This document shows, piece by piece, positions 1-50,889 of a stretch of DNA of 57,357 nt (positions are counted from its first letter, which is position 1; each line of letters begins with the position of its first letter). Below the pieces are notes generated by a model. That model did not search any database. It was not told the DNA's origin and worked only from the letters and a program-made list of their open reading frames with translations. This DNA comes from an uncultured Clostridia bacterium (GTDB lineage: Bacteria; Bacillota; Clostridia; TANB77; CAG-508), in NCBI GenBank assembly GCA_946401865.1, contig CAMIVO010000005.1:1-57357 (forward strand). Reading direction: 5' to 3'. A program made the position numbers and the translations under genes.

Positions 1-77
1 CCTCGAAAATACAGGGGTGTAGATTAATTAAATATAAATTTAGTTTACACTACCAACAACAAAATAGGAGGATAATT

Positions 78-1112
78 ATGAAAAAAATGTATCAGGAATT
101 AGAAAAAAAATATGAAATAGGTGAAGATATAAAGGATTTATTAGACAAATTTTCTTCATTTGAAGATTTTTATGATTCTTATATAACGCATATTGAAAAT
201 CATATAATTGTAGGTCATAAAGAAAGAAGGATGATACAAAAATTAGTAAAAGGAATAATAAAAGAGGCAATTGATGTTGAAGGTAAATCTTTTAGAGGTT
301 ATGATTTATTATGGTATGATTTAAGAATGCTAAGAAAGTTCCCAAATGTACAGATTTTTTATTCTTCAGAGAAACTGAGAAAAGCTATTGAGGAATTATT
401 AGATGATACAGAAAAATTTGTATTAAAAGAAAAATATGGATTAGTAGATGGCGCAAAACCAAAGTCTTTAGAAGCAATTGCAAAAGAGGTAGGGCTAACA
501 AGGCAAACAATTAGAATGAGATTGGGTAAAATTAAAGAAAAACTATTTAAGTATTTTACGCAAATAAGCAATCAGGAGTTTATATGTATAATCCCTGATT
601 TTATAGATATTCTTGAAAATGAAGAGACAGAAAAAATAGAAAATATTATAAAAGATATTCGATTACAAAATGGAGATTTATCTGAAAATTTAAGACAATT
701 AAGAAAATTTGAAGAGGAAATCTGTTCAGAAAAAAGTAAAGAAATAGCCAAACTTAAAAAAATGGATGCTTTGAAAGTTAAAAATCTTGGTTTCTCGTCA
801 AGAACATATTATAGGTTAAGTAGTGCAGATATAACATTTTTATCTGATCTAGAAAAGTGGACACCAGAAAGATTATTGGAAATAAAAAATTTAGGAACAT
901 GTTCTTTTGATGAAATTGTTGAGAAAATGAGAGAACATGGAATACATTTTAAAGCTGAAAAATCAAAAGATGAATTAGAAGACGGTATTAAAATTACTAC
1001 AGCAGAAATTGGTAGAGAAACAAAGTGTGTTCCAACTGAAGCAAAACTAAAAGCAGCACAAGTTGAAATTAGCAAAAAAATACAAGATAATAAAAAAGGG
1101 GAAATTGTGTGA
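78..1112 (+). CDS. Sigma region 4-like HTH plus alpha-CTD-like DNA-binding protein
   Basis: The 344-residue protein looks like a transcription regulator assembled from parts of the polymerase machinery. Residues about 101-162 resemble sigma-70 region 4: an ELLDDTEKFVLKEKYGL helix, then SLEAIAKEVGLTRQTIRMRL as the helix-turn-helix. Residues about 228-292 resemble the helix-hairpin-helix of the RNA polymerase alpha C-terminal domain (core LLEIKNLGTCSFDEIVEKM). There is no region 2, so it is not a complete sigma factor. The first 100 residues are helical and unassigned, and the tail after 292 is charged. ATG is preceded by AGGAGG at 66-71. Its TGA overlaps the GTG start of the next gene (GTGA), so the two are probably translated together. 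Domain calls are by motif; the target is unknown. Confidence 0.8.
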   Translation: MKKMYQELEKKYEIGEDIKDLLDKFSSFEDFYDSYITHIENHIIVGHKERRMIQKLVKGIIKEAIDVEGKSFRGYDLLWYDLRMLRKFPNVQIFYSSEKLRKAIEELLDDTEKFVLKEKYGLVDGAKPKSLEAIAKEVGLTRQTIRMRLGKIKEKLFKYFTQISNQEFICIIPDFIDILENEETEKIENIIKDIRLQNGDLSENLRQLRKFEEEICSEKSKEIAKLKKMDALKVKNLGFSSRTYYRLSSADITFLSDLEKWTPERLLEIKNLGTCSFDEIVEKMREHGIHFKAEKSKDELEDGIKITTAEIGRETKCVPTEAKLKAAQVEISKKIQDNKKGEIV

Positions 1113-1546
1113 GGTTAACTAAAGAATATGCTATGGCATATAAGGAAGTCATTGAAATATTAAAATATGTACCAGATGAAGATGTTAAAAAAATTCCAGA
1201 AGAAAAATTGAAATTTTATAAAAATAATATGGATTATGAATATAATTATACATTAGATATGACAAAAAAATTTGAAGAACAGAAAATGTCAGACATAACT
1301 AAAGCAATACTTGCAAATATATTTAAAGATTATTGGGCGACTCCATATCAAAAAGAAAGAATAGAAGCAAAGGAAAAATATGATTTAGAAAAATTAGAAG
1401 AAGAAAAAAGAAAAAAATATAATCCAGATAATATATTCGAAAGACAAAAAGAAGAAAAAGTTTTTGAAAGTACAAATTTACCAAATCAAATAAAAAAAGA
1501 ACCATTTTGTAATAAATTAATTAGTTTTATAAAAAGGATTATTTAA
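1109..1546 (+). CDS. Small unknown protein, family shared with the gene at 50380
   Basis: This 145-residue charged protein of unknown function starts at GTG, inside the stop of the upstream gene, with AAAAGGGG at 1096-1101 as the ribosome binding site. Its first 90 residues align with the product of 50380-50889: both share AY.EVIEILK.V.DE, an (I/L)P.E.L stretch, an EY, a later TxAIL or TFAIL, and a (D/K)YW motif. Both then have a very charged Lys/Glu linker and end in a basic hydrophobic helix (here around KLISFIKRII). I do not recognise the family. The shared core and amphipathic end suggest a small adaptor or membrane-associating protein, which is inference only. Confidence 0.72.
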   Translation: MRLTKEYAMAYKEVIEILKYVPDEDVKKIPEEKLKFYKNNMDYEYNYTLDMTKKFEEQKMSDITKAILANIFKDYWATPYQKERIEAKEKYDLEKLEEEKRKKYNPDNIFERQKEEKVFESTNLPNQIKKEPFCNKLISFIKRII

Positions 1547-1580: not shown

Positions 1581-1617
1581 ATAGCTAAAGATTCAAAATC
1601 TTTAGTTATTTTTTTTT
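1581..1617 (+). terminator. Rho-independent terminator after the first operon
   Basis: An inverted repeat around AGCTAAAGATT / AATCTTTAGTT with a three-base loop is followed by a long T run (1608-1617). It closes the two-gene unit that starts at 78. Confidence 0.85.
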
Positions 1618-2800: not shown

Positions 2801-3980
2801 ATGCTGATAAAGCTACTTATACAAATAATTTTAGGTTATGTTAGAATTGAAGTAGAAGGTTATTATATAGAAAGATTTATTAATTTATGCACAAACAGAA
2901 AAATATTTACTTGGAATTTAAAAAGAGATAGTGGAGTTAAATTATTTTTAAATATTGGAATAAATGAGTTTAAAAAAATAAAAGATATTGCAAGAAGAAC
3001 TAGTTGCAAGATAAAAATTAAAGAAAAAAGAGGGATGCCTTTTTTATTATATAGATATAAAAAAAGAAAGATCTTTGCAATATTTTTATTAATTATATTA
3101 ATAATTTTGTTTATAAGTTCAAGATATATATGGAATATAGAAATATCATTTCAAGATAATCAAGTTGTAGAAAATATAGGAACAGATTTAGAAAAATTAG
3201 GATTAAAACCAGGAATTGCAAAAAATAAAATAGATACAGAAAAAATAATAAATGATATAAGATTAAATAGAAGCGATATCGCATGGATTCGGAATAGATA
3301 TTGAAGGAACAAATATAAAAATAAAAATAACAAAAGCAAAAGAAATACCTGAAATAATTAATAATACAGATTATTGTGACATTGTAGCTAAAAAGTCAGG
3401 TGTCATTTCTAAAATAACTGCTCAAAATGGAACAGCTATTGTAAATGTGGGAGATAGTGTAAATGTAGGAGATGTATTAATTAAGGGAATTATGGAAGGA
3501 AAATATACAGAACCTAGAAAAGTACATAGCTTAGGAAGTGTTGAAGCAGAAGTTATTTATGGAAAAACAAAAGAAATTAATTTTAAAGAAGAAATATATA
3601 AAGAAACAGGCAAAAAAGAAATTAAATATGAAGTTAATTATAAAAATAATAAGATAAAATTATATAAAAACAATTCAAAATTTAATGATTATAAAACAGA
3701 AAGTAATTGTAAAAAAATAAAAATATCTAAGAATTTTTATTTACCAATATCAATAACTAAAATAACAAATATTGAGCTAATTAAAAATACACAAAATCAT
3801 TCTTTAGATGAAGCAATTAATATTGCAACCAAAGAGTTATCAGAAGAATTAGAAAAAGAAATACCTAATTTAGAAAATATTGTAGATAAAAAAATAGAAA
3901 CTATACAAGGTAAAAATTCTGTAATAGTAACATTAAAATATATAATTAGAGAGGAAATTGGTGAGAACAAAAAAAATTAA
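2801..3980 (+). pseudogene. yqfD: Sporulation protein YqfD, broken by a single extra C
   Basis: Two adjacent reading frames together form one YqfD. The first runs from ATG 2801 and stops at 3304. The second continues the same protein in the +1 frame to TAA 3980. Removing one base, C3290, joins ...DIAWI to GIDIEGTNIKIKI without loss and gives about 392 residues, close to the usual length of the family. The N-terminal part has a transmembrane segment (FAIFLLIILIILFISSRY). The C-terminal part has the VGDSVNVGDVLIKGIM motif typical of the family. YqfD is a stage IV sporulation membrane protein in the mother cell. The joined sequence shows no other damage, so a sequencing error or a very recent mutation is more likely than old decay. 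Confidence 0.88.
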
Positions 3981-50379: not shown

Positions 50380-50889
50380 ATGGAAGATAATAAAAATGCT
50401 TATTCAGAAGTAATTGAAATATTAAAACTTGTAGATGATGAGAAAAAATTGGAAGCTTTGCCAATGGAAATGCTAGAACTTTTAAAATCAAAGGTTAATC
50501 CGGAATACAAACCAATAATCAGCAAAGACATACCATTAGATGAACAAAATTTACAACCAGAAACATTTGCAATTTTAAACTGGATTACGCAAAAATATTG
50601 GAATGATGAACAGGATGAAGAGCAAGAAGAACAAATAGACAGGGAAATTTCTATAGAAAAAATAGATAAAAATACATTAGCCAATATTGAGGTTGAGAGT
50701 AAAGAGGTTGAAAAAAGCACTGAAAAAACAAAAGAGATTATAGACGACTCAAAAGAAACTACAAATAAACTACCAGCATTAATAGATAACTTAAAATGGT
50801 ATGAAAAAATCAAAATTAGAATTATAGAATTATTTAGTAAAATTTTTAGAAGAAATAAATCAGAAGATAAACAGGAAGGAATTATTTAA
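50380..50889 (+). CDS. Small unknown protein, second copy of the 1109 family
   Basis: A 169-residue paralogue of the product of 1109-1546. The N-terminal part aligns (AYSEVIEILKLVDDEK, LPMEMLELLK, NPEYKP, EQNLQPETFAILNW, KYWNDEQ). An acidic linker follows (DEQDEEQEEQ), then a basic hydrophobic end WYEKIKIRIIELFSKIF. The ribosome binding site is weak. The stop TAA overlaps the ATG of the next gene, so it is coupled to the RsiV-like gene. The two loci share no other gene type. Function unknown. Confidence 0.75.
   Translation: MEDNKNAYSEVIEILKLVDDEKKLEALPMEMLELLKSKVNPEYKPIISKDIPLDEQNLQPETFAILNWITQKYWNDEQDEEQEEQIDREISIEKIDKNTLANIEVESKEVEKSTEKTKEIIDDSKETTNKLPALIDNLKWYEKIKIRIIELFSKIFRRNKSEDKQEGII

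Follow-up and report, generated by a model that had tools for sequence, protein, structure and literature searches.

A sigma-4/alpha-CTD hybrid protein with a putative C-terminal docking tail and its small companion in an uncultured gut Clostridia genome

The first genes of a 57,357-nucleotide stretch from an uncultured Clostridia bacterium (GenBank assembly GCA_946401865.1, contig CAMIVO010000005.1, forward strand; hereafter the window) raise the question of what a protein that joins a sigma-70 region 4 (sigma-4) fold to an RNA polymerase alpha-subunit C-terminal domain (alpha-CTD) does, and of whether the small protein encoded directly after it is its dedicated partner. The gene for this hybrid (344 amino acids; 78..1112, plus strand) is preceded by an AGGAGG ribosome-binding site (RBS; 66..71, plus strand). 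Open reading frame (ORF) calls confirm a 4-nucleotide stop/start overlap with a gene for a 145-amino-acid protein that begins with GTG (1109..1546, plus strand), as reported in an earlier note made from the sequence alone, and the small protein is probably translationally coupled to the hybrid. We consider it reasonably probable that positions 78-1546 constitute a two-gene cassette, in which a payload with a C-terminal tail is followed by a small adaptor, and that this cassette belongs to a modular system in an order of small-genome gut Clostridia. The anatomy of the cassette is well supported, and from it we infer physical binding of tail to adaptor, attachment to the membrane and a conflict-type purpose, be it defence or attack.

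The small protein (family and alignment A3) has no match in Pfam and no sequence relative in the PDB, and its best NCBIfam match (E 0.19) is not credible. Its helical domain (residues 1-108; 1109..1432, plus strand) is modelled with a predicted local distance difference test (pLDDT) score of ~90, but structure searches gave no clear match (best Foldseek E 4.3, best VIA-align Z 3.3), a result that does not show a new fold. The paralogue 49 kb away to which the earlier note drew attention is real (50380..50889, plus strand, 169 amino acids; 36% identity, E=6.7e-6 by BLAST, and matched by the family profile), although this genome holds nine copies or fragments in all. Members occur in 156 of the 190 genomes surveyed from the same bacterial family, with up to 15 copies each, and 15 of 16 matches in a class-wide draw fall in the same order. 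The window protein scores 178 against the family profile, of which it is itself a row, and is independently matched to paralogues by BLAST. For 70 of 98 distinct copies, a same-strand ORF ends no more than 60 nucleotides upstream or overlaps, just as the small gene in the window lies directly downstream of the hybrid payload. The bodies of these 70 upstream partners form 53 clusters that are mutually unrelated by BLAST. Among the payload domains that could be recognised are Fic, amidoligase, HD, ResIII/DEAD and UBA-like; transglutaminase genes lie near some family members, and some partners are housekeeping neighbours such as a tRNA methyltransferase. Relatives of the hybrid, by comparison, were found in 9 of 195 genomes, where they have another companion, and a survey of the two genes across genomes gave no general co-occurrence. 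The specific functional pair that had been proposed is therefore not borne out; judged by these comparisons, the small protein is a member of an unannotated multicopy family and no dedicated partner of the hybrid. Separately, in genome G139 (L043, around 5718 and 8402) a transglutaminase gene and a small-family gene have a common 5' leader, ACCAGATTTGTGTCTTGTAAAGGA, which suggests a common promoter or the boundary of a mobile cassette.

BLAST among the unrelated partners of the small family, the window hybrid included, revealed similarity at their C-termini. This putative docking tail, which we call type A, occupies residues 298-344 of the hybrid (969..1109, plus strand; core AEIGRETKCVPTEAKLKAAQ) and is identified by tail profiles and a held-out hidden Markov model. 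Profiles built with one cluster left out at a time placed 40 of the 70 tails within the highest 5% when ranked against 475 decoy C-termini, and 37 of the 70 within the highest 1% when ranked against shuffled tails; the window tail stood at 3.2% and 1.4%, respectively. The decoy set is conservative, because several of the top 'decoys' are themselves tail-bearing payloads, and in a first-round control random decoy sets that were handled identically gave 0/35 on all three occasions. One subclass is clear, with the consensus ITxxEIGKATIxTPTxxKxEAQ. Searched against 1300 ORFs, a model of this subclass that excludes the window row places the window hybrid (E=0.0078) next in rank to the true members, and matches none of the helicase-type relatives of the hybrid (described below) under E=0.9. 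Full-length local searches with a broad tail model were uninformative; scoring of C-termini only and a narrower model (A6) worked. A genome-wide search for the tail gave 28 matches in 21 genomes, all 21 of which hold the small family; 14 of the matches are training rows, and 8 of the other 14 lie, by our own count, within ~5 kb of a listed small-family copy. These findings argue that the window hybrid carries a divergent copy of the common tail, although its match is modest. At two loci, L107 and L112, payload genes with tails, several in a row, lie close to a member of the small family; a single adaptor may therefore act for more than one of them.

The relatives of the hybrid precede a different small protein of ~118 amino acids (alignment A5), and five of these relatives end in a second tail (EKSELIQRLLEQQQTIKAQQEEINRL in genome G103). 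A model built from these five sigma-4/alpha-CTD proteins only was searched against 1303 C-termini. Proteins outside the lineage were picked at E<=7.6e-5 at four loci (L211, L212 twice, L213 and L219), all of them encoded immediately 5' of A5 companions; the helicase-type relatives were also matched, and nothing else scored below 0.3. Because the second tail also occurs on unrelated proteins that precede the same companion, a tail travels with its companion. The hybrid in the window has an A3-family companion and carries the A3-type tail, not the second one, so that tail and companion appear, on this sequence evidence, to have been exchanged together on the hybrid lineage. A mixed case occurs in G139, where an A3-family gene lies 23 nucleotides upstream of a hybrid relative and an A5-type gene lies downstream.

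Homology between the window small protein and the 118-amino-acid companion was considered and rejected. A first match between the A3 and A5 profiles was an artefact, because the window sequence sat in both alignments; without it, only a helix matches. In this comparison 24 residues align (P=3.7e-4), joining the C-terminus of A3 to the N-terminus of A5 in otherwise unrelated proteins, and the A5 model independently matches the C-terminal ends of A3 proteins (G082, G100 and G055 among others). All 97 of 97 A3 proteins have a basic amphipathic C-terminus above the lipid-binding threshold (D=0.68), compared with 33% of controls. FtsA has a membrane-targeting amphipathic helix of the MinD kind. Membrane targeting of MinD relies on a short basic amphipathic helix at the terminus (PMC6803595). 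The small protein in the window likewise ends in a basic amphipathic helix (IKKEPFCNKLISFIKRII; 1490..1543, plus strand; net charge +4, hydrophobic moment 0.42) that resembles such targeting motifs, except that the small helical domain to which it is joined is unrelated and that its lipid binding is only predicted. By analogy, we propose that this helix may attach the protein to the membrane.

The hybrid itself was compared with the polymerase subunits whose folds it carries. Its alpha-CTD (residues 224-286; 747..935, plus strand) matches PF03118 above the cut-off (E=1.7e-12, 47.3 bits). Its sigma-4 region (residues 97-162; 366..563, plus strand) scores 18.7 bits against PF04545, under the cut-off of 24.1, and the scanned relatives score above it, up to 53.7 bits. 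An AlphaFold model from an 8-sequence alignment has a mean pLDDT of 65.7 and is good only in the sigma-4 (about residues 97-162, ~85-92) and alpha-CTD (about residues 232-290, ~80) domains. The modelled alpha-CTD superimposes on the solved structure 1z3e_B with Z 12.4 and a root-mean-square deviation of 1.0 A over 67 residues, and the modelled sigma-4 matches solved SigA region 4 with Z ~9 over ~80 residues. At the level of the predicted structure, these matches confirm the two folds that the earlier note had assigned to the protein. Its statement that polymerase-core domains are lacking also holds, since neither the alpha-subunit N-terminal domain (alpha-NTD) nor sigma regions 2-3 were found in Pfam and NCBIfam scans. 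With region 4 only and no region 2 model reported, the hybrid is not a sigma-70 factor, and with only an alpha-CTD and rpoA models far under cut-off it is not RpoA, which this genome encodes on contig C41. Thus, although the folds are those of RNA polymerase, and the sigma-4 of relatives resembles RpoD (VTRNRIRQIEAKALRKL) and their alpha-CTD resembles RpoA, the hybrid joins both domains in one chain without the regions that normally accompany them. Several contact residues are also lost. In the aligned alpha-CTD, R265 is retained, but N268 is replaced by Y and K298 by C. A reading of the sigma-4 alignment indicates that R584 and R588 of the recognition helix are kept and that the equivalents of E585, R586 and Q589 are lost (E. 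coli numbering). The conservation of DNA-contact residues, which the earlier note named as prospective support, is therefore only partial. A further cluster of sigma-4 matches on contig C9 was rejected as kin of the hybrid, as it comprises ordinary sigma factors of the extracytoplasmic function (ECF) type and similar genes.

The relatives of the hybrid point to a different origin. A scan of genome contigs located 13 loci, all in uncultured Clostridia-type metagenome-assembled genomes. In G103 and G085 the relatives are superfamily 2 (SF2) helicases of ~1000 amino acids, with ResIII/DEAD and Helicase_C domains followed by an HA-like region, sigma-4 and one or two alpha-CTDs. Other relatives, among them a paralogue of 596 amino acids encoded on contig C8 of the genome that holds the window, have no helicase but keep HA, linker and sigma-4, and mostly the alpha-CTD; a relative in G042 is visibly degraded, with 2 TAG codons inside. 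The window hybrid aligns to the C8 paralogue only from about residue 185 of the latter, and has neither the helicase domains nor HA. By these alignments, the hybrid is the C-terminal part of a rare helicase-type lineage, and the helicase was presumably lost from a fuller ancestor. Helicase parts of the relatives score against RadD, Dnd and type IV restriction models, their sigma-4 against MzaA as well as RpoD, and their alpha-CTD against PglW; all matches to named defence proteins are at the level of domains and far under the cut-offs. For the BREX proteins PglW and BrxL, a recent survey (PMC12839542) describes nucleic-acid-binding parts that are alpha-CTD-like in the former and a sigma-type helix-turn-helix in the latter; model matches suggest the same use for MzaA. 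The hybrid differs from all three in that it has none of their defining parts, such as a kinase or Lon, and in that the match is confined to one domain. Specifically, the window protein has no PADLOC match and its relatives match ~50-107 C-terminal residues of MzaA far under the cut-off, which does not make them members of MZA systems; with PglW only the alpha-CTD-like part is matched and the kinase part is not. Given helicase-type relatives and similar modules in defence proteins, a link to polymerase is not needed, and the hybrid may be better regarded as the nucleic-acid-binding module of a conflict-type protein than as a transcription factor. In six genomes (L014, L037, L038, L039, L040 and L041), genes of the helicase/HA/sigma-4/alpha-CTD type adjoin murA, whose neighbourhood is a possible insertion hotspot. 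A phage or plasmid origin was considered and rejected, since searches of phages, plasmids and viral contigs gave no homologue, apart from a weak PHROG match of the small protein (E=0.0036).

We hypothesize that the cassette operates as follows. The payload would be a sigma-4 and alpha-CTD nucleic-acid-binding module, trimmed from a helicase-HA-sigma-4-alpha-CTD ancestor and ending in a short docking tail. The N-terminal helical domain of the adaptor, whose gene is probably co-translated, would bind this tail, and its amphipathic C-terminal helix would anchor the complex at the inner face of the membrane or at a membrane-bound machine, where nucleic-acid binding by the hybrid could serve defence or delivery. 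A broader proposal, which we hold only tentatively, is that of an order-wide delivery or tethering system, in which at least two interchangeable tail codes on dozens of unrelated payloads are each read by their own adaptor family, the common anchoring helix leads to a common membrane site or export machine, and the sigma-4/alpha-CTD payload has switched codes. The literature that we searched, which included few subscription journals, holds no description of a tail/adaptor system.

Several observations weigh against this account. Tail detection fails for ~40% of partners, so there are several tail types or some neighbours are not payloads, and the tail in the window is divergent, with a held-out E of only 0.008. 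The A3/A5 profile match has a probability of just 36%, a low value that reflects the shortness of the segment. The window helix has a hydrophobic moment below the family median of 0.58, is modelled at low confidence (pLDDT ~40) and could bind protein instead of lipid. Moreover, no dedicated machine was found. In a rival explanation that we regard as unlikely, the hybrid is a secreted or injected effector acting on nucleic acid of a target cell and the small protein is a secretion chaperone or adaptor that reads the C-terminal tail and delivers diverse enzymatic payloads to an export machine. Small helical proteins encoded beside diverse effectors serve as adaptors or chaperones in type III, type VI and type VII secretion systems (T3SS, T6SS, T7SS). 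The small protein shares this arrangement and probably likewise binds a conserved terminal region, and Fic, amidoligase, HD and helicase payloads with nearby transglutaminases are typical of effectors. It differs from such adaptors in that it matches no known family and has no convincing counterpart in fold, comes without a fitting machine, would recognise a tail at the C-terminus and bears a helix that resembles a membrane anchor. Neither an export machine nor an immunity gene pattern was seen, and a T7SS is an unlikely machine because its marker WXG100 is absent from this draft genome and present in only 17/190 genomes, compared with 156/190 for the small family.

An intracellular anti-phage or DNA-conflict module, in which a helicase-derived protein is held at the membrane by the adaptor, has a better though still minor chance of being correct, and it is compatible with the cassette that we favour. 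It gains from the SF2 helicase relatives with their scores against RadD, Dnd and type IV restriction models, from the MzaA and PglW matches to modules of a kind known in PglW and BrxL (PMC12839542), and from two Bro-N/DinD-like genes (L014, 8939-10757, contig C8) that adjoin the helicase-derived paralogue in the same genome and strongly match the PADLOC candidate defence family PDC-S13. It loses from the domain-level nature of those matches, from the absence of a helicase in the window copy and from the lack of phage or plasmid homologues. The possibility that a truncated helicase gene, flanked by an insertion sequence (IS), is a functionless, decaying remnant that precedes the small gene by chance is smaller again. 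An IS end does lie 24 bp upstream, the helicase and HA parts are gone and the G042 relative is degraded, but the 344-amino-acid frame is intact, its RBS is strong, its domains are well modelled, its tail fits the companion actually present and not the tail of its relatives, and the same IS stands upstream of the RBSs of other genes. The roles suggested in the earlier note (promoter-binding decoy, anti-activator or polymerase adaptor), in which the small protein would be a cofactor of the hybrid alone, now appear improbable. Both folds are genuine and R265 is retained, but the pairing is not conserved, and full-length relatives are of the helicase type with a GGG/GGV-SP sequence within the sigma-4 recognition helix. 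Since polymerase-type contact residues are partly lost, including N268, K298 and several in that helix, a promoter decoy is not favoured. Least probable is a toxin-antitoxin or toxin-immunity pair. The two-gene overlap and small second gene are what such a pair would offer; an antidote, though, should match a toxic domain and not a common tail, and here dozens of partners with no relation to one another are followed by members of a single conserved small family.

The boundaries of the locus were also inspected. Positions 1..54 are an IS end, recognised as an exact repeat common to the ends of contigs C35 and C40. It recurs in 16 of 195 genomes of the genus, chiefly at contig ends, and in G754 it flanks a transposase-like ORF of 418 amino acids (L201). 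A regulatory leader common to contigs C5, C35 and C40 was therefore rejected, as the sequence is this IS end. Because the window opens with it at a contig end of a draft genome, the native upstream region of the hybrid gene is missing. At four places (window 1-54; L022 1-52; L056 7311-7364; L201 ~1500-1560) RBS-like sites and start codons follow closely on the IS end, as if the element preferred 5' untranslated regions. Downstream, an AT-rich hairpin followed by a T run (1585..1616, plus strand), found by eye, is a possible terminator closing the two-gene unit; it is absent from the output of a terminator scanner that requires 3 G-C pairs. Farther along, ORFs at 2801-3304 and 3447-3980 in different frames resemble, by eye, two halves of a yqfD-type sporulation gene and are preceded by a yqfC-like ORF at 2489-2767. 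The split may be a frameshift or an assembly error.

If the proposed tail-adaptor code is real, it would help to find and classify payload genes that lack annotation, hundreds of them, in uncultured gut bacteria. Every protein that bears a tail or precedes an adaptor would become a candidate payload, which raises a testable question about the destination and purpose of these proteins. The swap of tail and companion on a single payload lineage would be a natural experiment, from which the binding interface could be predicted. The hybrid, for its part, would illustrate the reuse of polymerase-type DNA-binding modules outside transcription.
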